Positions 1-29,388 of a stretch of DNA of 29,388 nucleotides are shown one piece after another. A program made the translations under genes and the position numbers. The notes under the pieces were generated by a model. That model made no database searches. It was not told the origin of the DNA and saw only the letters and a list, made by a program, of their open reading frames with translations. Source of the DNA: a virus; IMG/VR virus record IMGVR_UViG_3300041964_000007, positions 1 through 29,388 of that record. One strand, given 5' to 3'. Positions within the stretch are counted from its first letter, which is position 1. Every line of letters starts with the position of its first letter.

Positions 1-51
1 TTCCTCGCCGCCTCCGGCCCTGGCGGACAGAACGTCAAGAACGAATGTTAG
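1..51 (+). CDS. arfB: ArfB-type peptidyl-tRNA hydrolase, truncated by prophage insertion (3' end of the fragment)
   Basis: The only open reading that fits the left edge encodes FLAASGPGGQNVKNEC and then a TAG stop at 49-51. SGPGGQNV is the catalytic GGQ loop of ArfB/YaeJ, the codon-independent release factor that rescues stalled ribosomes; the family normally continues with NKV and a further hundred or so residues. Here the reading departs from the family right after the GGQ motif (K in place of N at codon 37-39) and stops five codons later, just upstream of a phage integrase. The 5' part of the gene lies outside the window. I infer that the prophage interrupts arfB and that the remaining protein cannot work, because the rest of the catalytic domain and the basic C-terminal tail are lost. 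The alternative is another GGQ-class release factor. Confidence 0.75.
   Translation, partial: FLAASGPGGQNVKNEC
24..51. other. Probable left prophage attachment junction (attL)
   Basis: Host-like arfB coding sequence ends at about base 38, the last position compatible with the normal GGQNVN reading. Phage sequence follows, with a recombinase start codon at base 100. Large serine integrases use short attachment cores and usually lie next to attP, which fits this spacing. The exact core cannot be fixed without the right junction, which is outside the window. Confidence 0.6.
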
Positions 52-99
52 TTCTCCCGTGAATAATGCGGGGAGGCCCCGCACACGGAAGGACGGGCT

Positions 100-1821
100 A
101 TGACGATCACCGCTTACTCCTTCATCAGGTTCAGCCACCGGGGCAGATGAAGGCGACAGTTTGCGTCGCCACTTGCCAAGGCTGAGCGCTTCGCCGCTGA
201 GCATGGCCTCACCCTCGATACCTCCTACCGTCCCTGGGGTCTCGGCCTTCAAGGGCAAGCACCGGAAGAGGGGCGCACTGGCGGATTTCTCGCCAACGTC
301 CGACAGGCGAGATCGCGTCCAACTCGTGGTTGATTGTCGAGAATGTGGACCGTCTGTCCCGCGAAACGAGTGGGATGCGATGGGGCTCTTCCGCGAGATC
401 ATCACGCGGGGCTCACCGTTGCGACCCTCATGGACGATATGATACTACGATCTGGCCGTCGCTGCGCCAAAAACCCGGCGCTCCTCAAACCCTTCAAGCC
501 GCCATGACGAAAGGCCATCGCGAATCGGCCGACAAGGCGACCGTCTGCAAGAAGCTTGGGGTGAGAAGCGGCTGAGATTGAACGCGTGGTTCGCGCAAGA
601 AGCTCACCCGCAAGGTCCGGGCTGGTTCGATCTTGTGCCCGATTCGTGGCGGGAGCCTCTTGTCGGTGATTGGCACTTCAACGAACGGGCCGATGTGGTG
701 CGCCGCATCTTCGCGCTCTGTCTTGCCGGGAAGGCAAGAGTCCGATCGCGGAAATCCTGAACCGGGAGGTGTGCCGCCCCTTCAAGCACGGTGACGGCTG
801 GTCACCTCAACGGTGCTGTTGCTGTTGTCCGATCGCCGCACGATCGGGGAGCTACAGCTATACCGTCGCGTGGACGGAAAGCGCGTCCCGGCCGGGGAGC
901 CGATCAAGGGTTACTTCGCCACGCCCGAGGGCGAGACGGTCGTCAGCGAAGAAACCTTCTACCTCGCGCAAGCCATGATCGCGCAACGCTGGTGTGGTGC
1001 CAGCGTCGGACGCCGTGACAAGGTTCCGAACCTCCTTGTCGGGATTGCCCGCTGCCAGTGCGCCGAAAGAATTGAATATCGTCCCGAGTTCAACCCTTAT
1101 GCGGGCCGGATAGCTCGCACTTGCGTTGCTCCGCAATGCGCGCGGGCGATCGTGCGCAAAACGATCGCAAATATCCATAGCGCGCACCATTGAGGCCATC
1201 CTCGATTGGGTAGGCGACATCACCGTTCGGACGAAGAGCTAACCGTGCCGGAATGGCGTCGCTCAAGCTGAGCGCCAGATGGCGGAACGCGACGATCTCA
1301 AGCGCCGCGTTCAGAGGCTCGAAAAGTGGGCGAGCACAACCACCCCGATCATCAAGATGCACTGATGGCGGCGCGGAACGGGATGCGAAGAGCCTTGAGC
1401 GCTGAGGGAGAGGTGATCGAGCTTGAGAAGCTCGCCACGATCAGCAAGCGAAGCGTCACCGATGACCGGCGCGCCGTGGTCCGGAAGCATCGCAATCAGA
1501 TGACCGGGCTTGAGGACAGCCGCTCTATGACATGCGCGCCAAGCTGCGGCGGCGCTCCGACAGTCGATCGATCGGTTGAGTTTTCACCGATGCACTTTCT
1601 GTGTCACTGATCGGCGCTCAAGCTCTACACTTCCGGGATGGCAAGCTCATGAAGGCGTTTGACCTTAGCGAAACGAACCCGGGCGGGGAGGATCATCTTC
1701 TCGGTTCCCGGGCGGGGAGACGATCGACAAGCTGAAACTCAGCCCGCTGGTGCTGAACAGCATCGGGAGGTTCTTGCCGAGATTGCCGAGCCGTCACCGG
1801 TTAGCCGGTCAATCAACGTAG
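100..1821 (+). pseudogene. Large serine recombinase (phage integrase), frame broken many times
   Basis: The gene starts at ATG 100 behind a good GGAAGGA Shine-Dalgarno. Pieced together across all three frames it gives a large serine recombinase. The N-terminal segment YSFIRFS carries the catalytic serine, followed by a SLRRQLAKAE helix, VENVDRLSR near 330-360 and VATLMDD near 420-436. A recombinase-domain segment reads ERADVVRRIFALCLAGK near 685-735, then FKHGDGW near 783-802. A zinc-ribbon-like piece near 1010-1130 has spaced cysteines, and a C-terminal segment near 1630-1700 reads KAFDLSETNPGGEDHLL. The 3' end is uncertain (between about 1700 and 1821). It would catalyse prophage integration into arfB. 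The breaks are single-base and protein similarity persists across them, so sequencing deletions are as likely as real decay. A 13-bp direct repeat (1678-1690 and 1707-1719) lies near its end. Confidence 0.75.
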
Positions 1822-5222: not shown

Positions 5223-8200
5223 TCACCAGATACCGAGGCGCACCCGCATGATGTTGCTGGCGTCAAAGATTCTTATCTGATTGGCCTCGATCTCGGTTCG
5301 TGATCCTGATGCGGCGGTTCGAAGTAGTCCGACATTGGCGTTGATAGCGGACAGGCTATCGACGCTGATGAAGTTGGCGCTCAGCTTATCTTGAGACGCA
5401 ACGTCGCCCAAGCTCTTGATCCATTGCCCACCGAAAAACTGAAACCAATCCTTGAAGCTCGGTCGATACCAGCTATCGCCTTCGATCGCGCCCGATGGCG
5501 TCGCATCTTGTCTGAACTGGAATGCATCGCGGCCTTTCGCGACTTTCGAGATCGTGATCTTATCAACAAGGCTCACGCCATCGAAGCCCCGGATTTCCAT
5601 GATCAGGCTGGAAACGCCTTGCGAGTTCATGACGTTCAGGAGACCTTGCGCCCCGGGCGTCCAACTATCGCCATTCCAGTAGGGATTAGGATTTCCGGAC
5701 AAATACCAAGTAATCGCGGCGCTGGTGTTTTGCTTCTCAACCCCGAACGTCACATCCTGTCCGGTTGTGGGGCTCAGTGCACCGAGTGATGACACAAGCA
5801 CTTGGCCGCTCGAAGGCGTGATCTTGATCGCCTTCGCGTTCGCCCCGGCTTGACCGGCCGGACCCTGTGAGCCGTTTGCACCAGCCGCAACCTTCGCGAT
5901 CGAGATCGTGTCCGAAAGCGTTACACCATCGGTGAGCGTTGCGACCACGCGCATGAACTTGAAGGAACCCTGTCCAACCGTTTGCGGGTGGTTGATGATC
6001 GCCACGATATTAGCGGCCGGGATGGTCTGTGTGTCACCGACGTTCGAACTTGAGAAGAAGTGACTAGCGGCGTTGTGAGGGTTCCCGGCACCATCGAAGA
6101 TCGTCCAAGTGACGGGTGCCGTGGTGTTCTGTTTGTTGGCCGTAAAGGTGATGTTCTGTCCCGTCGCTGGATCGAGCGTTGAACCATCGGCGGTGACGTT
6201 GACAGTCTGAGCGCTGTTGGTGAGGAACAGGAGCTTCGCATTCGCACCAGCGGAACCGGTTGATCCAGTTGCGCCAGTGGACCCGGCCGGACCTTGCGAA
6301 CCCGGGGCACCAGCGCGGGACTTCGTAAGTGAGAAATCACGATCGAGAATGACGCCCGCGTGAATGCCTGTCCCCGAAACCCGGAACGTGTAGATCGCGG
6401 TCTCTTCATTCGAGTCCATGCCGCCCGTTACGGTGAACGTCGGATATGCGCCGACCACCAAAAGCCCTTGTGGGTTGTTCGGGCTGGTGGTGTTCGTGAA
6501 GCTCGAAGTTACATCCTGATTGCCGTAGAAGATGCGAACCGTGGTGCTTGCGCCACTGTAACTGGTGACATTGCCCGCACTATCGGCCGGGACGATATGG
6601 GCTTCATTGGAAAGCAGGAACGCATAAGGGCTTGCACCATTCGCGCCCTTCTCAGCGACTAGCGTGTAGTTGGCGGTTGGTGGTGCGGCCGATGACGTAT
6701 GCGCCAGAATGACGATATAGGTTGAGCCGTTATGCTGAACCATATCGCCAACATCATAGGCGGTGTTCGTCACCCAAGCGCCGCGTGCGACGTTGCGAGT
6801 TGCACCAGTCTGAATACCGGTGAGCTTCGTTCCTTCGGCCGGATTAAGTCCGGTGAGATTGGTCGGACGGCTGGCGACGTTGGTCCAGTTAGCGGTTTGT
6901 GCCGCCTTATTGGCCATCGCGTTCACGAGGTTCTGTTTCGCCACCCGATAGCCGACAAGGTTCGTCACATAAGCGGACGTGATCGCAGTCTCTTGGGTGG
7001 TGTCATCATAGTCGGGATTGAGCGTGTCGAGATACGCGAACAGTGCATCATAAGCGTCACTGTAAGCTGTTCGCTCGATCGTGACGCCTTGGTTCAGAGC
7101 TTCGCTGAGCAAGCCCGGACGCTCAGCCGTGAACCCTTGAAGCTCTTCGATCAGGCGACGCTTTTCCGGGCGATCAAGAACGCCATCGGCTGCCATGTCG
7201 CTGTAGCGCTGATTGGCAAGGTTCGCGGCGGCTTGCGCCAGTTCGGCCGCTTCCTGAGCCGCTTCGGCCTTGTCGTTGATGGCATCAAGCTCAGCCGAGC
7301 CCGCGAAGTCACCCGCGATCTCGTTGGTGGAATGGACGGACCAAACACGCGTGTGACCAACCCGGACCCTGTAGGCCGGGAGCGCGGTTGCTTCCTGTGT
7401 GATCTTGTCCGGCTGCACCAGCGGGGTAGCGTCGCGCTTCGAGCTTAGGACGCCGGGTGACTTCCCGGACAGCATCGGTGCGAAGTGAAACTTGCCCGTC
7501 GCGTCCGCGATCAGGAACCGAGAGCCCGCCAGTGCGGCATCTCGAATGAGATCGAGGATGCTCGCCTGATCCTTCTGGTAAAGCGAGTAGGACCGAGGCG
7601 TGTTCGTGACACTGGCGTCGATACGTCCGGCCGTCACACCAGCCGTGAGGATCAGGGATTGCGCAACCACGCCGACGTTCACCGGTGAGCCGATATCGGC
7701 CGAGACTTTGAAGGTAGGTTCGTTAGCTAGTCGGAACATGCCCACCGAGGGAGCAACGGCCCACTCACCGTCTTCGAGCGTAAGGGCGGCAAGAGCCGCG
7801 TAAGTTGAGGCGCTCGCGGATGCCGGACCTAGAGAGATCGCGCCTTCATAGATGAAGTTGACCTGACACGCGCCATACCCGTGGACCTGATAAATCCACT
7901 TCACTGGATCGATCAGGACCGGCTCAACATTGGTGCAAGCTCCGAGTGCGAACGGCTTCCACTGTCCGGCAAGCTCGGTGGTGCCATTCGCGCCACCAGT
8001 CCCGCTATAGGTCGCGCTCAGGAGCGGACGATCGAGCGACGCCTCCGGACCAAGAAGCGGGATGCGGGCCGTCTGATCATTCTCGCGCAAGAGCGGACCA
8101 AGCGCGCCGCTCCAAAGCTGGCGATAGCTGGTGAAAGGATCACCGAGCGTGCCGACCCAAATCGTGGCAAGTCCGCCCTGATATTCATATTTCGGCCATG

Positions 8201-8444
8201 CAAGATTGTTGAGCTTCGCACTGAGGGCAAAAACGGCATTGCCGAAACTGATATCGAGCGGTTGCGGTTGGCCATTGCTCCAATAGCTGATGTTTAGCTC
8301 AGGGGCATTGATGAGCGCGGGCGTCCACTCTTTGTTGTCGAGATAAACGCCAGTCGCGCCAGCGTGGGCGCTACTTGCACGAATGACTTTGGTGCTATTG
8401 TCGGTTGGATCAACGGCCGTGATCTCTATCAGGAAGTTCCTCAC
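5223..8444 (-). CDS. Tail-tip / central receptor-interaction protein with collagen-like and Ig-like modules
   Basis: An intact 1073-aa protein from GTG 8444. The N-terminal part (about 1-370) holds baseplate-hub-like beta-rich sequence. An alanine/glutamate-rich coiled coil spans about 385-415. Residues about 554-598 (GAWVTNTAYDVGDMVQHNG) look like a CBM5/12-type carbohydrate-binding repeat. Two Gly-X-Y collagen-like stretches (711-735, 854-869) each precede an Ig-like domain (737-850 and 871-967) that share ANAK, a TGQ turn and KQNT. The end, ending in MRVRLGIW, resembles the central-fibre tip of J-like proteins. It lies after the tape measure and two small tail genes, as J does in lambda. 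I infer that it forms the tail tip and contacts the host surface. Confidence 0.8.
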   Translation of the reverse strand: MRNFLIEITAVDPTDNSTKVIRASSAHAGATGVYLDNKEWTPALINAPELNISYWSNGQPQPLDISFGNAVFALSAKLNNLAWPKYEYQGGLATIWVGTLGDPFTSYRQLWSGALGPLLRENDQTARIPLLGPEASLDRPLLSATYSGTGGANGTTELAGQWKPFALGACTNVEPVLIDPVKWIYQVHGYGACQVNFIYEGAISLGPASASASTYAALAALTLEDGEWAVAPSVGMFRLANEPTFKVSADIGSPVNVGVVAQSLILTAGVTAGRIDASVTNTPRSYSLYQKDQASILDLIRDAALAGSRFLIADATGKFHFAPMLSGKSPGVLSSKRDATPLVQPDKITQEATALPAYRVRVGHTRVWSVHSTNEIAGDFAGSAELDAINDKAEAAQEAAELAQAAANLANQRYSDMAADGVLDRPEKRRLIEELQGFTAERPGLLSEALNQGVTIERTAYSDAYDALFAYLDTLNPDYDDTTQETAITSAYVTNLVGYRVAKQNLVNAMANKAAQTANWTNVASRPTNLTGLNPAEGTKLTGIQTGATRNVARGAWVTNTAYDVGDMVQHNGSTYIVILAHTSSAAPPTANYTLVAEKGANGASPYAFLLSNEAHIVPADSAGNVTSYSGASTTVRIFYGNQDVTSSFTNTTSPNNPQGLLVVGAYPTFTVTGGMDSNEETAIYTFRVSGTGIHAGVILDRDFSLTKSRAGAPGSQGPAGSTGATGSTGSAGANAKLLFLTNSAQTVNVTADGSTLDPATGQNITFTANKQNTTAPVTWTIFDGAGNPHNAASHFFSSSNVGDTQTIPAANIVAIINHPQTVGQGSFKFMRVVATLTDGVTLSDTISIAKVAAGANGSQGPAGQAGANAKAIKITPSSGQVLVSSLGALSPTTGQDVTFGVEKQNTSAAITWYLSGNPNPYWNGDSWTPGAQGLLNVMNSQGVSSLIMEIRGFDGVSLVDKITISKVAKGRDAFQFRQDATPSGAIEGDSWYRPSFKDWFQFFGGQWIKSLGDVASQDKLSANFISVDSLSAINANVGLLRTAASGSRTEIEANQIRIFDASNIMRVRLGIW

Positions 8445-9616: not shown

Positions 9617-9623
9617 TATTTAG
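9617..9623 (-). promoter_or_regulatory. CTAAATA element at the tape-measure stop
   Basis: The TAA stop of the tape measure (9620-9622) is the TAA inside the motif. The motif ends 5 nt (TCACC) before ATG 9611. Confidence 0.55.
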
Positions 9624-12600
9624 TAGAGGTTTCCACCATAGCGGCCGTTCATCGAATCCATGTAGGCGAATGAGTCGCCTGATCCAGTCCCGATGTTCTG
9701 TTCGATCAGCTTCCGAAGAAGCGCGTTGGTGATGACTTGCTCGGAGACCATTGCCTGACTTCCCGCTTGAACCGCCGATGCGACGTTCGCGCCACCCGCG
9801 CTGTTGAACGCGTTCGTGACGTTGGTGAGAAGCCCCGTGGTCGAACCGGTGAGCAAGGCTCGGATATCCTGAAACTGACTTGTTGCGGTCCCGTAAACAT
9901 CGCGCGCCAGTGAGAAGATATCTTGTCCAAGGCTGGTGAAAGCGCTCTGATCCACGCTGGAATCACCGGCTGCGATCTTCGATTGATAATCGGCAAACTT
10001 AGTCAGATTCGCGTTCAGGCGATCGAGCTTGGTCACACCCGAGCCCTCACCCTTGAGGCTGTTGAGAAACTCATTCAGGGATTGCGTCTGTGACTTGAGC
10101 ACGTCCTTGAGCTTGATCGCACGATACTCATCGATCTTGGTCAAATCCTCAGTGGACGCGCCGACCTTGAGCATCGTCTCGCGAAGCTGATCCAAGGGCG
10201 TGATGATCGCTTTCACGGCACCCGTGATCGGGTCTTTCAGCGCATCGAAGTCGCGCATGACTTCGTTAAACTGTTGAACGAAGCTTATGGCGGAATCGAC
10301 GCCAAGCACGTTGACGGCCTTGCGCGCAATGTCGCTCAGTCCTTGAAGTGCACCATCCGAGATAGCATTCTCGATCGCGTATTTTATGGCCGCGTCGGCG
10401 TCGTCACCAAAGTCCCGAAGGCCCTTGGCGCTATCGCCCTTAAAGTTCATCCCGCCCTTACCGTTCCATCCGGTAGACGTGTCACGGACGCGCCACTTGC
10501 CGTTGTGCTGTCCAATCATGACATCGAACGCGCCGACACTTCCACCGAGCGCGGATGCGATCTCGGCAAGACCAGCCTGAACGCTTCCGGCCGCGCCAGC
10601 CGCCGCCTTCTTCATGGCCGCATTGTTGCCCGTGATCATGGCGGGAGCGGTGCCGCTCAACGTCGCTGATCCATTCGGAGCCTTATAGAAGGCGGACCCG
10701 ATCAACCCGCCGATCACAGACGCGCCAGCGGCGATGACGGGGTTACCGGTGAGCCCGCCGATCGTCCCGCCGATCTTTGCGCCGGTGCCGCTGCCCTTGA
10801 TGCCGAGACTGGACATCAGCCCGCCGACTTGGGAGCCGATCTCATAGCCCGCCATGGCACCGCCCATGGCCTTGCCCATGCCTTTCAAGATGGAACCGCC
10901 CGGCCTGAAGTCGTCACGAAGACCCTTCAGCGGGTCGCTCAGGCTTTTGAAGCCGTCTCGGAGGTTCATCATCGAACCCGAACCGCTCTGGAATCCTTCT
11001 GCAAGCTTCGGGTCGATCATGCCAAGCATCCGGGCAATGCCTGATGTGCCATTGGCGTTGGCTTGCGTCCGACGCATCGCGTCATCAAAGCTGCGAAGAA
11101 GATTGCCGAATGCGCCACCAAAGAGATCAGCGATTTCATTGATGCCATCGCTGAAGTTATCGATGAAGTCGTCTGCCACGAGCCGGTTGGCGCGTGTCAT
11201 CGCGTCACCATAGGTGCGAGCGATCTCCTGTGAGGTGCGACGGAATGCCTCCGGGTCAAGCATCGAGCGCGCCGCTTCAAGATTGGCGCTATCAACCCTG
11301 AACTGATCGGTCGCACGGGCGCGATCATTGCTGGCACGCGCGGTGAGGGAGCTATCGGCAAGCGCCGCCAGCGGCTTACGGGCGATCTCGGCAAGCGCCT
11401 GATCAACGCCCGCCAAAACTGAATCCCGCATCGCCGGGGTGATGGACTTCCCGAAGGCATCCTTCATCGAGCCCTCATCGAAGGCCTTCAGGAATGCTTC
11501 GCGCTGATCTTGAAGGTTCTTGGCTTCGAAGGTGGAATCCAGAGCCGAGCTATACCGGCGCGCGAAATCCATCGCCTTGGAGAGAAGCTCATTCTGTGCC
11601 TTCAATGCGGCATTCTTGTCGAGTTGCGAGCGAAGCTGATCTTCGGCTTGCTTGTAAGCGACGTTATTGATCGCCACGCCACGGTTCAGGGCATCGAGCC
11701 GCATCTTGAATAGCTGATCCTCAACCGCCTTTTGAGCATCGGTGAGGCCCTTGGCGCGACCAAGCTCAACCGTGTATTCATTCGCGGCTTCGAACTGCGC
11801 TTGCTTGAGCGACGTGATCGCCTTGGCGGTGTTGATTTCGCTCAACGCGCTGGCAACGCGGCCTTGCTCCGTCGCGGTGAGATCGCGCTCTAGGATTTTG
11901 CGAAGCTCCAAGCCTTTATTGTAGTTTTCTGCCTCAAGGGTGAGCATCCCGGCTGCCGCCGTCTGATCCTTCAACGCCTGCCAAAACTCTTGCTCGCGCT
12001 TGAGCCGCTCACCGGCCTTCTTGGCCGCGTCGTCGCCGCCGCCCTTGCCCGCCGTGGGAGAGCCCACAGGAGCCGCACCAGCAAGCTGATCGAGGCTCAG
12101 GCCACCCTTCTTGCCCGTGTTGCCCTTCAGGCGCTCCCACGCGTCCGCCGCGCCCTTGCTGTCCTTCGCAATCGCGGACGCCTTGGAGACGATGCCGCCG
12201 ATCACGCCTTCGGCTGCCTTGAACTGGCCAGCAAGCGCCCCGCCAATCCCGGCGAAGGCGTTCCAATCCCCGGACAGGAAGGAAGCGATACGGTTGCCGA
12301 TCACGCTGAACATGCCGCCGATCGCACCGAGCGCGGCGCTGAACATCTTGGGCAGGTTTTCGGTGAGGTATTTGCCCGCCCGGAGGACTCCGAGGAAGGA
12401 GAGCCCCATTGAAGACGTTGCGGCGCTGGTGGAGCCGGTGAGCCAAGACCAGAGCCCGGCGAACATATCCTTCACACCGCCAACCACGGCACCGATGACC
12501 TGTCCGGCCGCGCCAAAGCTCGCACCGATGATGTTCCCGACAACCTGAGCGGCTTGGCCGGTGAGGTTCAGGGCAACCGTGAAGCCCTCGATCAGCGACA

Positions 12601-13651
12601 GGCCTTGTGATCCACCGGTGTTCAGTCCGGAAAACATCGAGCCGAGACCCGAGCCGATCGCGGCAACGCCGTTGAGGATACCGGCCATCGCGTTGCCGAC
12701 GCCGACCAAGATCGGGGTGATCGCGCTCATGCCGCTCGTGAGCATCTGAACCAATCGGCCAACGCTATCGGTTAGCCCGCCATCACCGATCGCCGCCATC
12801 GTCTGGAAAACGGTATCTTGGAGATTGCTCATGGCACCGTTGAAGGTGCCCATCTGCTTCTCCATAGCTCCGGCAAACTGCGTGTTGCCGATCGCCCATG
12901 AGATATTTCTGAATCTCGGTGCTGTTATTCCGGACCGTGGTGTACACGCCTTGGAACGTGAATGCAACCGTGTCGCCTTGGTTCTTGGACTTTACTCCGA
13001 ATTCCTGAGGCGCTCGAACTCGCCAGTGGCGGCATCAGCGACAGCTTCCACCATCTGGTTGAGGTTCTCCCCCATGGCACTCGCGGTGTTGCCATAGCTG
13101 AGCATCGCGGCTTCGCTCGGCTGAAGACCAAGCGCCTTGAGCTTGATGAAACCCTTGAACGCTTTGCTCAGGCTGAACGGCGTCTTCGACGGCAAACTCG
13201 GTGAGACGGTCCCATCGCCATCGCGGCCTTCTCAGCGTCACCAAGGACGGTGGTGAGCGACGCCCCGATAAGACTGCATTTGCGAGCTTGCGCTCACGGC
13301 GGCTGTTCCGAGCGCCAGTAGACCGCCGACCAGAGCGGTTGCACCGAGCGTGGCACCGGCGAACCCAATACCGGCAAGAGCGCCACCCATGCCGGACAGG
13401 CGAGCGCAGCCGCCTGAGCGGTAGCGCCACAGGGAGCCGAACGAACTCGAAACCGAGTTGTGTGTTTGCAGCCGTGCGAGCGGCGGTGTTCGACATTCCG
13501 CCAAGCGTCATCGAGAGGCGCTGAACGCTGTTGTTCCGCCGCCACTGGCGGAACCAACTGCGCTAATGCTGCATTGATTCGACAGTCCGGCTTGAAACGC
13601 CGGACGTGTCCATAACACACCGCGAATAACTATCTTGAAACCGCCAGGCAT
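9620..13651 (-). CDS. Tape measure protein (N-terminal part with several frame breaks)
   Basis: Sets tail length and is ejected with the DNA. The clean part (9620-12890) gives more than 1000 residues of alternating glycine/alanine-rich hydrophobic stretches and long helices rich in K, A, Q and E. Examples are GVGNAMAGILNGVAAIGSGL near the start and VIAAGASVIGGLIGSAF further on. Upstream, pieces in different frames join into one N-terminus: ALAGIGFAGATLGATALVGG, then TAAVSASSQMQSYR, LTEFAV, PFSLSQSVQGFIKLKALGL and FERLKEFGIKSKNQGD; this is the usual tape-measure opening. The start is taken as ATG 13651 (MPGGFKIVIRG), one base after a CTAAATA element. About 1340 aa after correction. Breaks between 12.89 and 13.6 kb look like missing single bases. 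Confidence 0.85.
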
Positions 13652-17184: not shown

Positions 17185-18195
17185 TTAGCCGTTGGTGCGG
17201 AACGCAACGATCGCGGCGTTCTTGCGCGAAACCTTGCGGTCCCATGCCGACGCGGCGTCATACGCGGACGCAGCCGGAGAGCCGGTGTTAGCCGACACGG
17301 TTGCGGCCGAAGAGAAGCCAACCGGGTGAAGGATTAGCTGCTTGCGGCTGGTCACGGTCGAGAGACCCCATCCGTTTCCGGCGCGCTCATCGGTAACAAC
17401 CGCCACCGAGCGTGCACCAAGGTTTGCCTCACCGAACGCCAGAGCGCCGCGACCGAGCAGATAGGTCGTGTAGGTGGTGCGGTTGGTGCCAACCACGGCG
17501 GGCATACCGTCATCAATGATGACCGGAAGACCCATGTAGGTCGCGAACGGCTGAGTGGCCGAGGCCGGGTCCGTGTTCGTCGGCTCATTCTTGAGCAGGT
17601 TGAAGAACACACGCGAGTGCATGACGATCAGTTGCAGCTTGCCGAACGCATCGCCCATCGAGGCCATCGCTTCCGTCACGGTGCCGACGTTCGCCAGTTC
17701 CGAGGCAGCCGCAGCGCCCACCGCATCGGTCGCAACGTTGCGGACCATATCACCAGCATCGTTGGCGATGTTGTCCTTGATCACGCCGGACAGCTTGGCC
17801 AGCGCGAAGCGCTGGTAAGCCTGCACCCAATAGGGAGCGACTACATTGTTGACGATGTGACCGAGAATGTCCTCACCCGAGAGAGTGGACGCAAGCTCGG
17901 CTTCCCCGAACGTCTTCGAGAAATAGTCCTTCTGATAGGACTGCGGACCCATCTTGATGCCGTTGACGCCAGCGTTCGTTCCATCGTCCTTGGCGAGATC
18001 GGGATCAGAGTAATCCTGAAGACCGAAGAGCGGGAGCGTGCCGGTGTGGCCAGCCTGACCCGCAAGCGCGGCCATTTCGTTCGAGGTGACAATCGCACCC
18101 GAAGAAAGCAAAGCCGACTTTGCAGTTACCGCTTCGGTGACAGCGGCGGAAAAGATATTCGGATGAATGATATCCGAGAGGGAAGTATGTGCCAA
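17185..18195 (-). CDS. Major capsid protein
   Basis: A 336-aa protein that builds the HK97-fold shell. It opens MAHTSLSDIIHPNIFSAAV, then SGAIVTSNEMAALAG, GTLPLFGLQDYSD, an E-loop-like YQKDYFSKTFGEAELAS and a spine-helix region with WVQAYQRFALAKLSGVI. Later MHSRVFFNLLKNEP and PVIIDDGMP are typical of the 'phage coat protein' family next to DUF4055 portals. The start is TTG 18195, seven bases after GGAG; no ATG or GTG in frame fits better, so a major virion gene uses a rare start. It lies between scaffold and connector genes with its own leader and its own terminator. Confidence 0.88.
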   Translation of the reverse strand: MAHTSLSDIIHPNIFSAAVTEAVTAKSALLSSGAIVTSNEMAALAGQAGHTGTLPLFGLQDYSDPDLAKDDGTNAGVNGIKMGPQSYQKDYFSKTFGEAELASTLSGEDILGHIVNNVVAPYWVQAYQRFALAKLSGVIKDNIANDAGDMVRNVATDAVGAAAASELANVGTVTEAMASMGDAFGKLQLIVMHSRVFFNLLKNEPTNTDPASATQPFATYMGLPVIIDDGMPAVVGTNRTTYTTYLLGRGALAFGEANLGARSVAVVTDERAGNGWGLSTVTSRKQLILHPVGFSSAATVSANTGSPAASAYDAASAWDRKVSRKNAAIVAFRTNG

Positions 18196-19029: not shown

Positions 19030-19224
19030 TCAGTCGAGATAATCGGGCGGGATATCGCCCTCATAGACTGGATCAGTGATGATCAGCCGAACGGCATCAA
19101 GGGCGCGCGCGTGATCGGGATAATCGAGTTGCGCGGCCTGCCACTCGATATCGCGCATGTCCTCTAGGGTGAGATCATGACCCTTGGCGAGCAAATCGCT
19201 CAACACTTCACTTGGCGGCTTCAT
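19030..19224 (-). CDS. Small hypothetical head-region protein
   Basis: A 64-aa acidic protein from ATG 19224 that overlaps the end of the MuF gene by 17 bases and stops at 19030, just before the CTAAATA element of the scaffold. The sequence (MKPPSEVLSDLLAKGHD, a following LEDMRDIEWQAAQL and an ending GDIPPDYLD) is probably helical with no membrane segment. Codon use matches its neighbours. Overlap-coupled small genes between MuF and scaffold are common, but I do not recognise this one. Confidence 0.65.
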   Translation of the reverse strand: MKPPSEVLSDLLAKGHDLTLEDMRDIEWQAAQLDYPDHARALDAVRLIITDPVYEGDIPPDYLD

Positions 19225-21322
19225 CTAACAGTTCCTCGATCAGGTTCACGAGATCGGTATCGGCCAAGTCGCGCCGACCCATCATGAACGCGGCAAAAGA
19301 CTCGGCAAACCATTCGGCCTCATTGGTGGTCGCATAGGTGCTCGACAGTTGGTTACGGCGCTCGATGCCGCGTCCCTGTAAGTTGCCCGGGGCGGCACCA
19401 TGAAACTTGTTGAAGAACATCTGTTTCAGGCGACGCTCAAGGGGCGGGGTGCCGACTGTGGCGCGCCGACCTTCCTTCTTCCACATTTGATGGATGTGGT
19501 GCCCGGTCTCGTGGAACAGCACCGTGCGCATCCGATCAATGCCGGTGAAATACTTATCAACCGTATAAGGCCGCTTGGTGATCTCCTCACCGACCTTCCA
19601 TGCGCTCACCTCATCGGAGGCTTGGCGTTGCGCCGTGGCGATCTTGCGCCGAAGCTTGAACTCCTTATCGGCCAACTTGCGGTAGCTCATGAATAGCTCC
19701 CGCTCATCAACCAATCGGTTCAGATACCGCTCACGCAAGGCCGGGTCTTGGCTCAAATCCGCGATCTCACTCCTGATCTCACCAATCCGCGTCAACATAT
19801 CGGCAAGCTCGGCTCGCATGGCGGTATGTTCGGCGCTGATCTTACTCAACCCGCCAGATTGCGGGCCAGTTTCATCTACACCAACCCGGCTGGCAAAACC
19901 ATTGAAATGCGTCGGGTGAACGCCAAGCGTTCCATCTCCCATATTGGCGACGGCCGAGTTGCCCGAAATCGAACGGATTGCCCGAAGGCGGGGGAGCTTG
20001 AACGCGTCCGTGATGGCATCAACCTCAGGCATAAGGGCAAGGATGGCCGATGCCGCCTGATCGCTAAACTCGGTCGAGAGTTGAGCCTTCCCGAAGTGCT
20101 CGGCTTTCACGCCCCGGAATTCCGGCCGGGGGTCATAAGCCGATGCCTTGGCATTCTCGGTGAGACGTGTGTTCAGACGTTTGGTCACGTCCTTGCGCGA
20201 GATCACCTCAACGGTGGTGTCATTGATCTCCCGGTTAATCGGAGACGTGAACCGCACCGGTGCCGGTGCAGGCGTTGGCGCTGGTGATCTCACACCACCG
20301 GCGAAGAGCCGTTCGTCAAACTGACGAAGCTCTTGAAGCGATTTGTATCCGCCACGCTCCTTGAAGAAGCTCTGAAAGTCGAACTCGGGATTGGCGCGGA
20401 ATATATCCGCGCGTGCCTTGCCGAGCACTTCGTCTTGCACGCTCTCGGGTTGGTCCTTCAACCATTCACCAAAGGGCTTGTGCTTCTTGCCCTCATTGTC
20501 GCGGCGCGGGATTAGAAGGCTTCGGCACCGTGGGTGCGCCGGGGGTGAGGGGTGCGGGGCATCGATGCCATAGATGGTCCCTGAGCGTCCCTGACAGATA
20601 GCCGATGTCCGGCTATCGAGGATCGATGACCATTCCAGAAACTTAATGGTCTTCGATCGCTTGAAAACTTCTTCACGTGCGCTGTTCTGAATGGCGCTAT
20701 TCGCCGTCAACGCGATCGTGGTTGCATCGCGGCGGGAGGTTTGAAGAATGCCGTCCGTGTAGTTGTTCTGGCGCGTGCCCCGAATGCGGGCGATGGCTTG
20801 GCCGGTGGTCTCGCCAAGTCCCGCCGACATCCTCAACGCACCTTCGAGCCGACGAAGACGGCCCGCTTCCTGAACCTCAAGCCAAGGCATCAGGAGCGTG
20901 ACGCCATCATCCGCGAAGGGGAGGGGAGTGGACTTGATGAGCGATTGTAAAAACTGTGGTCCCGGGATGGTGGTCCGGAGATCGAGCTTCGCGCCCGCCG
21001 TCTTCATCGCCCGTGCGGCAAACTCGGCTTCCGTGCCTGCCACTTCCTCAAGATCACCGATCAGGTTGTTCGCGGCTTTCTGATAGGCGTTGCGATTGAT
21101 CTCCCGATACGCCTCGCGCATGTCCTCAAGCCGCTTGGTGGTCGCGGGTCCGCGATCGAACCCATCGGCCTCGATGCGGGCATACCGGGTGGCGATGAGA
21201 TCGGTGAGGGCCTCATCATATCCATTCAGCGTGCGAACCATCGCATCCGCATGTTCTTGGCCGATGTCTCGCGCCGCCACTGAATGGCGGAACAAGATAT
21301 CCCTGAGCTTGTCCTGATCCAC
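19208..21322 (-). CDS. MuF-type minor head protein fused to a zinc-metalloprotease-like domain
   Basis: A 704-aa protein from GTG 21322. Residues about 1-280 are the MuF/SPP1 gp7-like head-morphogenesis domain. It is helical at first, then SRRDATTIALTANSAIQN, WSSILDSRTSAICQGRSG (231-248) and PPAHPRCRSLL (260-270). A Pro/Ala linker (346-356) leads to a second half. That half has a long helix (495-575) and at 604-608 HETGH, preceded by hydrophobic VLF. At 667-677 NEAEWFAESFA supplies the downstream glutamate expected of gluzincin-like zinc proteases. MuF proteins bind the portal region inside the head and can carry C-terminal effector domains injected with DNA. I infer a packaged protease, acting on capsid or on host proteins. 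Typical lone MuF proteins are 250-400 aa. Confidence 0.75.
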   Translation of the reverse strand: MDQDKLRDILFRHSVAARDIGQEHADAMVRTLNGYDEALTDLIATRYARIEADGFDRGPATTKRLEDMREAYREINRNAYQKAANNLIGDLEEVAGTEAEFAARAMKTAGAKLDLRTTIPGPQFLQSLIKSTPLPFADDGVTLLMPWLEVQEAGRLRRLEGALRMSAGLGETTGQAIARIRGTRQNNYTDGILQTSRRDATTIALTANSAIQNSAREEVFKRSKTIKFLEWSSILDSRTSAICQGRSGTIYGIDAPHPSPPAHPRCRSLLIPRRDNEGKKHKPFGEWLKDQPESVQDEVLGKARADIFRANPEFDFQSFFKERGGYKSLQELRQFDERLFAGGVRSPAPTPAPAPVRFTSPINREINDTTVEVISRKDVTKRLNTRLTENAKASAYDPRPEFRGVKAEHFGKAQLSTEFSDQAASAILALMPEVDAITDAFKLPRLRAIRSISGNSAVANMGDGTLGVHPTHFNGFASRVGVDETGPQSGGLSKISAEHTAMRAELADMLTRIGEIRSEIADLSQDPALRERYLNRLVDERELFMSYRKLADKEFKLRRKIATAQRQASDEVSAWKVGEEITKRPYTVDKYFTGIDRMRTVLFHETGHHIHQMWKKEGRRATVGTPPLERRLKQMFFNKFHGAAPGNLQGRGIERRNQLSSTYATTNEAEWFAESFAAFMMGRRDLADTDLVNLIEELLDEAAK

Positions 21323-21340
21323 GGCCTATTTAGGCCGTGG
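21319..21340 (-). promoter_or_regulatory. CTAAATA element in the loop of a perfect hairpin at the MuF start
   Basis: CCACGGCC and GGCCGTGG (21319-21326, 21333-21340) are perfect 8-bp arms with TAAATA as the six-base loop. The portal TAA stop is inside the loop, and the MuF GTG start (21320-21322) is in the downstream arm, 4 nt after the motif. Confidence 0.6.
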
Positions 21341-22730
21341 GGTCATCCTCGATGCCGATGACGGGCGGACGATCAGCGACTTCCTGAGCAATCCGATCGG
21401 CATCGGCTTCCTTGTCGAACGACTCCGGGAGCGTCTCACCTTCGATCAGGGCATCAAGGAGCGTGTCACGGCTGATCACCCCGGCCTGATAGAGGGACAT
21501 CAGGGATGCGATTTCGTCCTTGGTGAGCTTGGCCGAACCGAAATCGGTGTTGACCTCATAGGTGATCGAACCTTCCTGATAGCCGAGCCAATACGCAACC
21601 CACTTTAGCGCATCGGTGATCTTGCGCGAGATCAGGCGGGCCGTGGATGCCAGCGCGGCATTCTCACTTGCCATCTTGACCTTCAGGGTCTCGGAGCCTT
21701 CCACGCCCGCGCGTTCATCGGCAAGGATGCGAGCGCCGACCTTGGCCATGTCGCTGGCGATTTGTTGCGTGAACAGCATGAGCTTATCGATCGCGACGCC
21801 GGAATATTCCAGCATCCCGATACGCATGTCATTGCCGGACTTGATCTCACCCTTGAGGAAAGTCCCCGGTGCAAGACTGACATCCTGAATCTTGGCGGGA
21901 CCGAACAGATACGGTGTCGGATTGGACGCGAAGAAGCTGCACTGAGCTAGGTTCGCGGATGCGATATAGTGTTGACCATTCAGGTCACACACGTCGCTCA
22001 GCTTGGCTTTCGCCGGGGCGAAGCGGCGGTTGGTCGAAACGAGCACGAACGGGATGCCGACGTTTGCGATCGGGGCACCAGCGCGAAGCGGCTGAATGGG
22101 CTCACCCGCGACATAATCGGCGTTCGGCTCCGGGCGGGACCACATCGTGACGGTGTAGATGCCCTGATCGAGCCATAGCTCCCGGATGATGTCCGGACCT
22201 TCCTGTAGGACCACGCGACCGATGCCGAGCCCGCCGCCAATCAGGGCGGGTTCGATCTTGATGATCGTTTCGGCGCGATAGACGCTCACCACGGGACGGA
22301 CGCCGACCCGCTGAGCTTCCGCCACGCTCATGGCGCGATCGGACGCGGGAAGGTCCACCAGCAACCCGACGAAGTTAGTGAGGAGAAACTCGGAGGCGAC
22401 TTCTTCGGCAAGGTCATCAACGGTGAGGTAGTCGGGTGTGATCGTCTCAAGGATCGAGCCGAGCCCAGCCGGGGCTTCCTTGTTGGACGGCTTGCGGAAG
22501 AGCAAACCGAGCAAACCCTCATGGCACCGGGATGCGCCCGGAAAGAACGGGGTGCGGGCCGCGATCGCCTTATGATGGTCATCGGTGAGACCGGGGTCTT
22601 TCGGGAGATAGCTGGTGCGACGCTCGGAGGATTTCACCACCCGTGCGCCCTCGATCATGTCACGATTGCGCTGCCACTCTTCCCGCCATGCAACAAAGGC
22701 AGGCGTCACCGTATCGATCTTATCCGTCAT
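21330..22730 (-). CDS. Portal protein, DUF4055 family
   Basis: A 466-aa protein from ATG 22730 (MTDKIDTVTPAFVAWREEW). The family features are present: RDMIEGARVVK, then YLPKDPGLTDDHH, a ...RTPFFPGASRCHEGLLGLLFRK hallmark near 54-76, VDDLAEEVASEFL and, in the last third, GVAIDKLMLFTQQIASDMAKVG. DUF4055 proteins form the dodecameric ring through which DNA is packaged and ejected. The length is usual for the family. The gene sits between the large terminase and MuF. The stop codon TAA forms part of the next CTAAATA element. Confidence 0.85.
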   Translation of the reverse strand: MTDKIDTVTPAFVAWREEWQRNRDMIEGARVVKSSERRTSYLPKDPGLTDDHHKAIAARTPFFPGASRCHEGLLGLLFRKPSNKEAPAGLGSILETITPDYLTVDDLAEEVASEFLLTNFVGLLVDLPASDRAMSVAEAQRVGVRPVVSVYRAETIIKIEPALIGGGLGIGRVVLQEGPDIIRELWLDQGIYTVTMWSRPEPNADYVAGEPIQPLRAGAPIANVGIPFVLVSTNRRFAPAKAKLSDVCDLNGQHYIASANLAQCSFFASNPTPYLFGPAKIQDVSLAPGTFLKGEIKSGNDMRIGMLEYSGVAIDKLMLFTQQIASDMAKVGARILADERAGVEGSETLKVKMASENAALASTARLISRKITDALKWVAYWLGYQEGSITYEVNTDFGSAKLTKDEIASLMSLYQAGVISRDTLLDALIEGETLPESFDKEADADRIAQEVADRPPVIGIEDDPTA

Positions 22731-22735
22731 GAACG

Positions 22736-22742
22736 TATTTAG
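22736..22742 (-). promoter_or_regulatory. CTAAATA element before the portal gene
   Basis: It includes the TAA stop of the large terminase (22739-22741) and ends 5 nt (CGTTC) before ATG 22730. Confidence 0.55.
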
Positions 22743-24073
22743 GCGGATGCTCCCATGTAGTTGGCGATCCGACCCGAGACGATCGGCTGATTAGGACCAT
22801 CACCGGTCAAGAGTTCACTCATGGCGTAGACATACGCATCCAAGCGATCGGGAGACTTGCCCCGCTTGCGATCATAGTCACCGGTGAGGCGGACCATCTG
22901 ATCTTCAAGCTCCTTGAACCGAAGATCAGCGGGATGGTGGATATGCCCGGCCTTCATCTCAGCCGCGATTGGCATCGCTCGGATGTTCTTGCCTTGGCCG
23001 CGCCCGGGATTGACGCTCTTGATCACAAGACTGGCATCAGCCGTTCGCAACGTGTGGGCGTTCTGATCACCACCCTGTGTGGTCTCGATAACGACCAATC
23101 CAGCGCCCCAACGCCGATACGCACTCGCGACCTTTTCGGCCCACTCATGGGGGTGATAGCGGCCGGACAAATCCTCCAAGGGATAATAGTGGCGCTCACC
23201 GCCATCCTCGATCGCACCACAGACGAAGATGCCGGTCTCATCCGAGGTTGGTGTATTCGTGACGGCCGGGTCAACACCGATGACGATAAGGTCGAAGTCA
23301 TCCGGCTCGGGCGTGGTGATGCGGTGATTGTCGAGATCAAGGGCGGAGAATAGGGCACCCTCTACTTCATCACTCCACTGGCCTTCAAGGAAACGCTTCT
23401 GTGTCGCTGCCGAGCGGTTCTGGAACTTGTTATAGTAGTTGGTATCAACGTTCGGGTTGGCGTCGGCTCCGAAGTGAAGGGAGGAATAGGACTGCGGGTC
23501 CGTCAACTCCCGCTTGGTATTGGGGACCAGCTTGGCGAGAAATAGCTGATAGAGCCAATGCTTCTTCGATGTCGGATTGCAATCCGCGATCATCTTCACG
23601 GGGCAGGCGGGATGCGCGACGTTGAGGAGACGGGAGTCGATCAACTCGAAAGTTTCGTAATCGAGATCGGTTGCCTCATTGAGGAATATGGTCTGATACT
23701 CGGCACCAAGGACTTTCTGAATCCGCTCCTCATCGTTGACGCCACTGAACACGATCGTGGAACCGCCGATCTCGGGACCGAAGGTGATGGTGAGATCGGT
23801 GGAGTTATACTGAACGAACGGTGCAATCCCGAACGTCGCGATCACGTCCTTGAAGGTTGCCCAAATCGTTGGCTTGATCGAGTTACCGGTGAGACGGAAG
23901 ATCGCATGAGCGCTGCCGGGATGTTGAAGGGCGCGCGCGATCATGAAAGCCGCGATCGCGTAGCTTTTGCCGCCACGGCTTGAGCCATAGGCGAGAAAGT
24001 ATTGATGATCGTGAAGGCGATCGATCAGCGCAAGCTGATGCGGGAATAATGCGGGGCCGTTGTAATCAGACAC
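22739..24073 (-). CDS. terL: Terminase large subunit
   Basis: A 444-aa packaging motor from GTG 24073. ATPase domain: Walker A-like GSSRGGKS at 30-37, Walker B-like TIFLNEAT at 128-135, then the coupling region MIADCNPTS near 161-169. Nuclease domain: IGVDPAVTN near 265-273 with the first metal-binding aspartate, DETG near 278-281, and PDRLDAYVYAMSEL near 408-421. It translocates DNA into the procapsid and cuts the concatemer. The small subunit is not adjacent but 3.2 kb upstream, separated by a regulatory and moron insert. There is no Shine-Dalgarno; the start follows the CTAAATA element by 4 nt. Confidence 0.92.
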   Translation of the reverse strand: MSDYNGPALFPHQLALIDRLHDHQYFLAYGSSRGGKSYAIAAFMIARALQHPGSAHAIFRLTGNSIKPTIWATFKDVIATFGIAPFVQYNSTDLTITFGPEIGGSTIVFSGVNDEERIQKVLGAEYQTIFLNEATDLDYETFELIDSRLLNVAHPACPVKMIADCNPTSKKHWLYQLFLAKLVPNTKRELTDPQSYSSLHFGADANPNVDTNYYNKFQNRSAATQKRFLEGQWSDEVEGALFSALDLDNHRITTPEPDDFDLIVIGVDPAVTNTPTSDETGIFVCGAIEDGGERHYYPLEDLSGRYHPHEWAEKVASAYRRWGAGLVVIETTQGGDQNAHTLRTADASLVIKSVNPGRGQGKNIRAMPIAAEMKAGHIHHPADLRFKELEDQMVRLTGDYDRKRGKSPDRLDAYVYAMSELLTGDGPNQPIVSGRIANYMGASA

Positions 24074-25639: not shown

Positions 25640-26068
25640 ATGAACAGTATCGAACTTAGGGCCATCCGTGCCAGCACGGGGCTATCTCAGGCGGGGCTTG
25701 CCGAAGCATTGGGGATCAGCCGCAAGACCTACAATGAGCTTGAGGGTGGCGCGACGATCGACCAGCGCACTCGGCTGGCGATGGAAACACTTGCCCGGAA
25801 GGTGAAGCTGATCCGGGATGCTTATTGGGTGGAAGAGAGCGCGAAGGGGACTTGGATCGTCATCCGTCGCACCGAGCGCGAGATCGACCGGCCCAACGCG
25901 CTCTATTGGGGGCAAGCCGAGCTTATGCTCTATGGCGAGTTCGCGAACGCCGATCACGCCTACCGGTGGGCGGCTGCGCTTCGCCGCGCCGATAATCCTC
26001 GCAACACGCGGAAGCTTGAGCGCGCGCGGGAGGCCGAAGCGCGGGAGCGTGAGGCGATTGACGCCTAA
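25640..26068 (+). CDS. XRE/Cro-CI family transcription regulator
   Basis: One of very few plus-strand genes. ATG 25640 (MNSIELRAIRAS) has GGAG eight bases upstream; a longer frame from 25604 starts inside the promoter. 142 aa. The N-terminal HTH is clear: LRAIRASTGLSQAGLAEALGIS with the second helix QAGLAEALG and the recognition helix around SRKTYNELEGG (residues 23-34). The rest is a helical domain rich in W, R and E, ending in a charged ERAREAEAREREAI tail. It lacks an S24-type autoprotease domain, so it is unlike full-length CI; more like a Cro or a restriction-controller-type protein. It is convergent with the serine recombinase (4-base tail overlap) and divergent from the membrane/lipoprotein pair, which it may control. 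Confidence 0.8.
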   Translation: MNSIELRAIRASTGLSQAGLAEALGISRKTYNELEGGATIDQRTRLAMETLARKVKLIRDAYWVEESAKGTWIVIRRTEREIDRPNALYWGQAELMLYGEFANADHAYRWAAALRRADNPRNTRKLERAREAEAREREAIDA

Positions 26069-26733
26069 GCGACCGGCTCCGGCCGCGTCACCCGGTTGAT
26101 CGTCTCAAGGCTCACGTTCCGGCCGTGTTCGTTGTGAACGTGCACCTTGATGGACCGGAGCGACATGCCGGACCGGCGAAGGTCACGGGCATACTGGATG
26201 ATGGCTTGCTCCTCACCGTCGCGGAACAGCGCGCCATCAGGTCCGACCCGGAACCCGAAGGGCACCTTGCCCCCGAGATACCTGCCACGGCTGCGCTGAT
26301 CGGCCTTCACAACGGAGACACGCTCGCACGTATTGGCGCGCTCAAGCTCGGCAAAGGCGGCTGAGATCGTGAGGAAGGCCTTGGCCATGCCGTTCCCGGT
26401 GATGTCCCCAAGGGAATCGATCACCACGATGCGGATGCCCCTTTTCTGAGCGGCCTCTACCGTCTGTAGGGCGTCTAGGGCGCTCCTGAACACGCGATCG
26501 AGGCGCGGGGTGACGATGGTGTCACCTTTGCGCGCCTTGGCCATCATGAGGCTTCCCTGAGGCCGCTTGGCGATCGGGATGGAGCCGCTCACGCCACGTT
26601 CGATGAAGGTCTCGGTGAGATCAACGCCTTGGATCAGACACCAGCCCTGAATCTGGCGCTCCTGAACCCCAAGGCTCTCGCCTTCTTCGGCTTGGCGATC
26701 GGTTGAAACCCGACAATACCCGAAGACACTCAC
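26065..26733 (-). CDS. Small serine recombinase (resolvase/invertase family)
   Basis: A 222-aa protein from GTG 26733. The catalytic domain is complete: FGYCRVSTDRQ with Ser10 as nucleophile, ERQIQGWC, FIERGVSGS, the arginine motif PRLDRVFRSALDAL, then DSLGDITGNGMAKAFL and FAELERANTCERV. The long E helix is followed by KADQRSRGRYLGGKVPFGF and a C-terminal HTH-like segment (RRSGMSLRSIKVHVHNE). It is distinct from the large integrase at the left end. It overlaps the 180-aa-frame gene upstream by GTGA. Substrates could be an inversion or resolution site; the repeat cluster at 27218-27283 is a candidate. Confidence 0.85.
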   Translation of the reverse strand: MSVFGYCRVSTDRQAEEGESLGVQERQIQGWCLIQGVDLTETFIERGVSGSIPIAKRPQGSLMMAKARKGDTIVTPRLDRVFRSALDALQTVEAAQKRGIRIVVIDSLGDITGNGMAKAFLTISAAFAELERANTCERVSVVKADQRSRGRYLGGKVPFGFRVGPDGALFRDGEEQAIIQYARDLRRSGMSLRSIKVHVHNEHGRNVSLETINRVTRPEPVA

Positions 26734-27305: not shown

Positions 27306-27884
27306 TCAGCCGTCTTCCTCAGGGTCACCAAGGGCCTTGGTCTCGACCTTCATGGACCAAGCGGGGAGGTTAATGTTCACTCGCGCATGATCCACCTGAA
27401 CCCGCTCACCGAACTCGGCACGGTTTCGTTGACTGGCGTTCTTTTCGATGACCTTGATGAGCAACTCATCGCGCCGGGCATCACCAGTGCTGAACACGCC
27501 ACCCGCCGCGATATCGGGCGTGATGTCCTTGAGCATCCGTTGACCCATGGCCTGAGCCCATTTGATATCCTGATCGAGCTTCTCATCGTCGCGGCACCAG
27601 TTCCACATTGTCCGGGGCGCTGGCAAATGCTCCGAGATCAGGATCGAGGCCATGGACTCACCCATGATCAGGCGCTCAAGTATCTCTTCGATCATTTCGT
27701 CTGTCCTGATCGAGCTTGAGCCGGGTTTCAGGCCAACAATCTGGCGGTATCGAGCGCCGATATCCTTGATGATGACCTTCCCGAGCTTCCGCTGATCGAT
27801 AAGGGCGGGGTCCGGGAGCATCTGTCCGATCGAGACGCTCCCGTTGAGGTGAGCGGGGACGTTTGTGGGGGTTTTTGGAGGCAT
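27306..27884 (-). CDS. terS: Terminase small subunit
   Basis: A 192-aa protein from ATG 27884. The opening PPKTPTNVPAHLNG is basic and flexible. The middle has a DNA-binding HTH followed by the typical small-terminase run ILERLIMGESMASILISE, then PAPRTMWNWCRDDEKLDQDI and WAQAMGQRML (roughly residues 60-125). The C-terminus is the oligomerisation region (DELLIKVIEKNASQRNRAEFG) and an acidic tail. This resembles the Sf6 gp1/G20c-type small terminases that recognise pac DNA and feed the large subunit. It lies 3.2 kb upstream of terL instead of next to it. The start follows GTAAATA by 5 nt. Confidence 0.75.
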   Translation of the reverse strand: MPPKTPTNVPAHLNGSVSIGQMLPDPALIDQRKLGKVIIKDIGARYRQIVGLKPGSSSIRTDEMIEEILERLIMGESMASILISEHLPAPRTMWNWCRDDEKLDQDIKWAQAMGQRMLKDITPDIAAGGVFSTGDARRDELLIKVIEKNASQRNRAEFGERVQVDHARVNINLPAWSMKVETKALGDPEEDG

Positions 27885-29093: not shown

Positions 29094-29388
29094 TCGAATT
29101 CGGAAAAGCGTTTGCCAGTGATCGGTTTCGAGTTCGGTCTCGGTGATATTCTGTTCCGCCAGAAACGCCGTGCGGCATCGCACAAGCGTGATCGCGGGAT
29201 GATCAGGCTCAAGCTCGGTGGCATGGCGGGCGAGATTGTATCGCCCATAGGTGCCATGGATGTCCCGATGGAGCGTTGCCGCAACTTCCACGTCGCCCCG
29301 GCTGACATATTGGCCGCACCAGCGCTCGATTTCGTGTTTGAGGCACCGGGCTTGGCGCGAGCGTCGCTTGAGCCTTTTCTGAGCGCCC
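29073..29388 (-). CDS. Small orphan protein, first of a related set (5' end outside window)
   Basis: The frame is open from the window edge to TGA 29073. A GTG at 29291 could start a 72-aa protein, but the upstream in-frame sequence (KRLKRRSRQARCLKHEIERW) looks coding, so the gene probably starts beyond the window. It continues YGRYNLARHATELEP, then ITLVRCRTAFLAEQ and an ending TLFRIRYPEAHQ like that of the next gene. The basic upstream part resembles a DNA-binding surface. No family recognised. Confidence 0.5.
   Translation of the reverse strand, partial: GAQKRLKRRSRQARCLKHEIERWCGQYVSRGDVEVAATLHRDIHGTYGRYNLARHATELEPDHPAITLVRCRTAFLAEQNITETELETDHWQTLFRIRYPEAHQ

Follow-up and report, generated by a model that had tools for sequence, protein, structure and literature searches.

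Introduction

Mobile elements that preserve the gene into which they integrate usually carry the replaced end of that gene within attP, as is seen for icd and for many tRNA genes (PMC10111431). Another arrangement has been described for the vTRX32-1-like temperate phages of Rhizobium, which carry a complete replacement tRNA-Leu that lacks the 12 bp attachment motif, and the authors of that study proposed that the replacement both restores function and keeps the phage from integrating into itself (PMC8631192). Among the targets of large serine recombinases (LSRs), the Mg chelatase gene accounts for 12.4% of the predicted site-specific LSRs (PMC10083194).

The DNA analysed here, referred to as the window, is a whole IMG/VR record, linear, 29,388 bp long and not cut from any longer assembly, with a fragment of the ribosome rescue gene arfB and a large serine integrase at its left end. 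Judging from the sequences of the window and of two relatives, we consider it likely that the phage lands in arfB and brings with it a replacement ArfB that is proof against its own attachment.

The left end of the window

Bases 1-51 of the window encode FLAASGPGGQNVKNEC in frame 1, and the fragment is closed by an in-frame TAG at 49-51. Residues 1-12 are the same as in the interrupted arfB of Sphingomonas xinjiangensis (FLAASGPGGQNVNKV), and the host sequence ends in GTCAA at base 38, where the codons read GGC GGA CAG AAC GTC AA. The initial annotation described an arfB truncated at the left edge right after the GGQ codons, with an integrase soon downstream. The truncation and the neighbouring integrase both stand, but between the Gln codon of GGQ and the cut there are 8 nt, and the start of the integrase has been refined to an ATG at base 100 (Table 1).

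When the integrase of the window is read through its frameshifts, the domains PF00239 and PF07508 are detected. Large serine recombinases have an N-terminal Resolvase domain with the catalytic Ser motif, and behind it Recombinase and zinc-ribbon domains, and the predicted product belongs among them. Within 1.7 kb the frame has 33 breaks, with deletions accounting for 28 of them, and the left end of the window is thus either error-rich or decayed. Long open reading frames are intact from about 3 kb onward, and deletion-rich breaks at a contig end beside intact open reading frames suggest a poor long-read consensus rather than decay. The left 2.4 kb had no match when its DNA was compared with phages, and the relatives of the terminase large subunit in IMG/VR show only 26-39% identity.

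Table 1. Positions of features in the window, counted from its first base
Feature	Position	Strand	Basis or remark
Host arfB 5' fragment (FLAASGPGGQNV + AA), B arm of attL	1-38	+	Agrees with arfB in S. xinjiangensis and Novosphingobium sp. Rr 2-17 as far as GTCAA, diverges after
GGQ codons GGC GGA CAG	22-30	+	Sequence
Predicted crossover dinucleotide AA	37-38	+	attP dyad centre in both relatives; match to the host ends here in the window
Phage (P') arm of attL	39-99	+	Alignment; homology with the corresponding arms in both relatives
Large serine integrase (Resolvase and Recombinase domains), 33 frameshifts	100-1805	+	Domain search of the read-through; frameshift-aware alignment to an intact relative
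Large tail/host-specificity-like protein with carbohydrate-binding module CBM_5_12	5223-8444	-	Domain search
Tape measure protein	9620-12967	-	
Major capsid protein (Gp13-like)	17185-18195	-	Domain search
Head morphogenesis protein and portal	19208-22730	-	
Terminase large subunit	22739-24073	-	
Small serine recombinase, the second in the window (222 aa; a Resolvase domain and no other), perhaps an invertase or a resolvase	26065-26733	-	Between the terminase genes
Terminase small subunit	27306-27884	-	About 1.5 kb from the record end

Relatives with the same junction

The only near relative in IMG/VR (L032) begins exactly at the integrase ATG, which suggests that the host flank was trimmed off. 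Close integrases are also present in the genomes of S. xinjiangensis DSM 26736 (L034) and Novosphingobium sp. Rr 2-17 (L035), with 70% and 61% identity, respectively, to the integrase of L032. The intact relatives contain PF00239, PF07508 and PF13408, the last of which scores above the cut-off only in L035. In both genomes an arfB that breaks off after SGPGGQNVNKV lies directly upstream of the integrase and behind an RluA-like gene. Alignment with MAFFT showed that the three attL sites correspond across the host part and then across a homologous phage arm. The initial annotation had read the window as the prophage of a serine integrase inserted in the GGQ codons of arfB, and the recurrence of this junction in two relatives bears that reading out for a large serine integrase.

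An artificial joining of an arfB fragment to a phage end during assembly would be conceivable given that the left 2-3 kb of the window is error-rich. The same integrase-arfB junction and homologous phage arms occur in two independent genome assemblies, however, which makes coincidence or a chimeric contig exceedingly improbable.

Surveys of 398 genomes at the family level, 196 and 295 at the genus level and 385 at the class level yielded no further close integrase. Integrases about 40% identical to that of the window lie inside comM/yifB (Mg chelatase) in L036, L052, L124 and L125. When IMG/VR was scanned for the arfB GGQ codons, intact GGQ proteins and unrelated matches came up, and no more truncated arfB genes. 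ArfB-like matches in L118, L120 and L121 that appeared to be cut turned out to be intact genes resembling release factors.

A search for the RF-1 domain in the genomes of both relatives recovered the 3' parts of arfB, each beginning at the shared core, so that integrases beside a truncated arfB and the remainder of the gene at the other prophage end, as the initial annotation would lead one to expect, are both on hand in these genomes; the record of the window stops at 29,388, before attR. In S. xinjiangensis the 3' part is on the same contig as the integrase and 10 kb away from it. In Rr 2-17 it is on contig C89, separate from the integrase contig. A homologue of the terminase small subunit is near the start of C89 and C80 ends past the terminase large subunit, and since the terminase genes are split over these contig ends, the two contigs most likely make up a single prophage of about 41 kb, half on each. 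The window and this prophage are collinear relatives. Joining the flanks in silico gives a complete ArfB in the two relatives (133 and 135 aa), which indicates that the insertions are clean.

The element in S. xinjiangensis (L034, 9930-20120) is about 10 kb long and encodes an IS3-like transposase, a DNA methylase and a phage lysozyme, with no recognised structural genes, and it is either a prophage remnant or a satellite. Only two elements are mapped at both ends, one of which is this 10 kb remnant. That the reconstructed flanks yield a complete arfB would fit with an insertion which serves as a switch, excision restoring arfB under some condition, and a switch of ribosome rescue that acts through tmRNA is known from excision of the CP4-57 prophage (PMC10107115). 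A switch would have no need of the replacement copy described below, though, and the S. xinjiangensis element, with its IS insertion, is a remnant, and regulated integrity of the gene is accordingly a very unlikely explanation.

Attachment site and predicted crossover

The sequence common to attL and attR of S. xinjiangensis is TCAACAAGGTC, a core of 11 bp. The attP sites reconstructed for both relatives have dyad symmetry centred on the AA in CAG-AAC-GTC-AA^C (the caret marks the predicted crossover), with scores of 14/20, reached by none of 500 shuffles, and 12/20, reached by 8 of 500. No dyad symmetry of this kind was found in attB. A dyad-symmetric attP that has a short identity with attB, the arrangement by which sites of large serine recombinases are recognised, is therefore present in both relatives, and the window diverges from the host exactly after AA, which is the dyad centre of their attP sites. 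The DNA of the GGQ codons had been regarded in the initial annotation as conserved enough to be a generic target, and the distribution of the attB core agrees with this: allowing two mismatches or fewer, it is present in 237 of 289 sphingomonad genomes, and a reversed control pattern had no matches in the genomes listed.

The reading frames that enter the phage arm stop just after the core in all three attL sites, the last residues being NVKNEC, NVNKVP and NVNKV, followed by a stop codon in the first two cases and by two in the third, and the attR remnants of both relatives lack GGQ. An end of the target gene embedded in attP, from which the frame would be rebuilt at the junction, was considered and rejected on these grounds.

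A probable replacement arfB on the related elements

Directly before the attR remnant, both relatives have a complete gene for an ArfB of 140 aa (L034, 19674-20096; L048, 7249-7671). The two proteins are 69% identical to each other and score 168.5 bits against the NCBIfam ArfB model NF006718, for which the cut-off is 100. Residues needed for ArfB activity have been described (PMC3950681), and G26, G27, Q28, R105, R118, K122, K129 and R132 are kept in both proteins; L119V is the single change in the tail, is conservative and also occurs in the host gene of S. xinjiangensis. The ArfB of the S. xinjiangensis element matches E. coli YaeJ in the PDB with an E value of 3e-35. By its GGQ domain and basic C-terminal tail (R118, L119, K122, K129 and R132), the predicted product of the element gene is an ArfB (YaeJ), which would hydrolyse peptidyl-tRNA on non-stop ribosomes.

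The replacement has the motif GGQHVNTT where the target has GGQNVNKV, and identity between the element ArfB and the 3' part of the host gene is about 48%. Measured against the attB pattern of 23 positions, the element genes have 8 mismatches in S. xinjiangensis and 5 in Rr 2-17, the latter still matching much of the attB core. A complete homologue of the target that is predicted to resist attachment is therefore found in both relatives, in a region which the window does not reach, and the element appears to swap the target gene for a copy that its integrase should not recognise. The suggestion in the initial annotation that insertion would remove ArfB-type ribosome rescue is probably wrong, since a complete ArfB adjoins attR in both relatives.

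Plain disruption would mean that the prophage knocks out arfB, that the lysogen depends on tmRNA and that the ArfB on the attR side is incidental. In keeping with this, neither the 29,388-bp window nor a 43 kb relative (G001) contains a complete ArfB, and tmRNA is nearly universal, ArfB being only conditionally essential (PMC11633108). Yet a complete ArfB is the last gene before attR in both relatives for which attR is known. The distance from the terminase small subunit to the element arfB is about 14.6 kb in Rr 2-17, and in the window about 1.5 kb of sequence follows the corresponding terminase gene. This spacing indicates that the window probably lacks about 13 kb in which attR and any arfB would lie, so that the lack of an ArfB in the record says nothing about the prophage. 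Both ends of G001 coincide exactly with gene boundaries, as is usual in trimmed records, and its lack of an ArfB is equally uninformative. We regard plain disruption as unlikely, and by analogy with its relatives we infer that the prophage of the window would carry a replacement arfB of its own.

ArfB types among sphingomonads

Sphingomonad ArfB proteins of the types GGQNVNKV and GGQHVNTT are encoded at or near the same locus (L057-L085). Of 398 sphingomonad genomes, 24 encode the replacement type, with 63-73% identity, and in nearly all 24 it is the sole ArfB-sized copy beside RF1 and RF2, one genome having an extra partial match. Its gene is usually near an RluA-like gene, and the attB core is absent from all 15 replacement-type genomes in the attB survey. 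In a tree whose bootstrap had not settled, the element copies nest within the replacement-type group (96/93), and they may go back to one origin or to several. Genomes with the attB-free type form a scattered minority and encode it at the native rluA-arfB locus or close by.

A third tandem was observed in another genome (G101:C175, 5545-6369, minus strand; L122), in which a complete ArfB with the motif GGQKVNKT is followed by an arfB 3' remnant starting with AACGTCAACAAGGTC. No large serine integrase was found in this genome, which is fragmented, and the open reading frames upstream of the tandem match no Pfam family. The tandem is perhaps the product of an unrelated element that uses the same codons. 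It is conceivable, if doubtful, that arfB-targeting phages have driven the turnover of arfB in sphingomonads, in which case the attB-free type would be derived from prophages or selected by them, its hosts would be immune at the attachment site, and unrelated elements, as the G101 tandem hints, would have come independently to carry an ArfB of their own.

Virus records elsewhere encode GGQ proteins resembling ArfB or release factors, and the element ArfB could accordingly function in the lytic cycle, rescuing ribosomes during infection, with its place on the attR side a coincidence. Cargo that is homologous to the interrupted gene and lies beside attR in two elements would be unexpected under such a role, as would the similar locus in G101, and we regard it as unlikely. 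Complete ArfB-like genes in other IMG/VR records (L116, L117, L098, L102 and L103) are either phage cargo or host flank.

Proposed mechanism and significance

In the proposed mechanism, attP of the phage would recombine with attB in the host arfB through the large serine integrase, with crossover at the AA in GGC GG(A/G) CAG AAC GTC AA^C AAG GTC. The chromosomal arfB would be cut 8 nt past the catalytic Gln codon, and a stop codon in the phage arm would seal the fragment. The last phage gene before attR is most likely a complete ArfB of a different type, in which catalytic and ribosome-binding residues are kept and the attB DNA is absent. Once integrated, the element copy would be expressed and active and take over ArfB-type ribosome rescue, and given its mismatches to attB it should itself escape the integrase. 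In Caulobacter ArfB is essential when tmRNA is lacking (PMC11633108), so that loss of ArfB is a plausible cost for the phage to avoid. On this account the window is probably the left-hand portion of a tailed-phage prophage integrated in a sphingomonad. Counting against the mechanism are the frameshifts in the integrase of the window, the small number of elements mapped at both ends, the partial match to attB that the element arfB of Rr 2-17 retains, and the GGQ proteins of other phages, which would allow for a lytic role.

Such a phage would have as its landing site the DNA of a catalytic motif that is under strong constraint at the protein level, and the price would be a spare gene with the same motif in different DNA. 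If confirmed, the arrangement would be a clean natural test of how prophages compensate for a target gene, the specificity of a serine integrase for arfB GGQ codons that are present in most sphingomonads would be one for which we found no description, and a phage-borne ribosome rescue factor would be part of the lysogenic state.

Comparison with known systems

The initial annotation knew of no described serine integrase with this target, and none was found in the main text of open papers, where arfB is nowhere named as an integration target. LSRs that target the Mg chelatase gene belong to the same integrase class and likewise use a conserved coding sequence; the target here is arfB, which is not named in the main text of that study (PMC10083194). 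The SXT/R391 ICEs in prfC are also mobile elements in a gene for a translation release factor. They differ in having a tyrosine integrase and in using the 5' end of prfC, and the parts of the source consulted do not describe a separate complete homologue (PMC2791158). Integration or excision of CP4-57 and other ssrA prophages similarly touches ribosome rescue, but there the target is tmRNA, the integrase is of the P4 type and the damage is caused by excision rather than by integration (PMC10107115).

Like the elements that carry a replacement end in attP, the element described here would keep the function of the target gene after integration. Those elements rebuild the host frame (PMC10111431), while here the frame ends after a few codons and the element of the relatives brings a whole gene of its own. 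The nearest parallel is with the vTRX32-1-like phages, in which the target is likewise replaced completely and without the attachment motif (PMC8631192). Their target is tRNA-Leu and their core is 12 bp, whereas here a large serine integrase would cut a protein gene at the catalytic motif, and the gene that takes its place encodes a divergent homologue. Replacement of a target by an attachment-proof copy is thus already known for tRNA-Leu, and in the present case the target is a protein gene.
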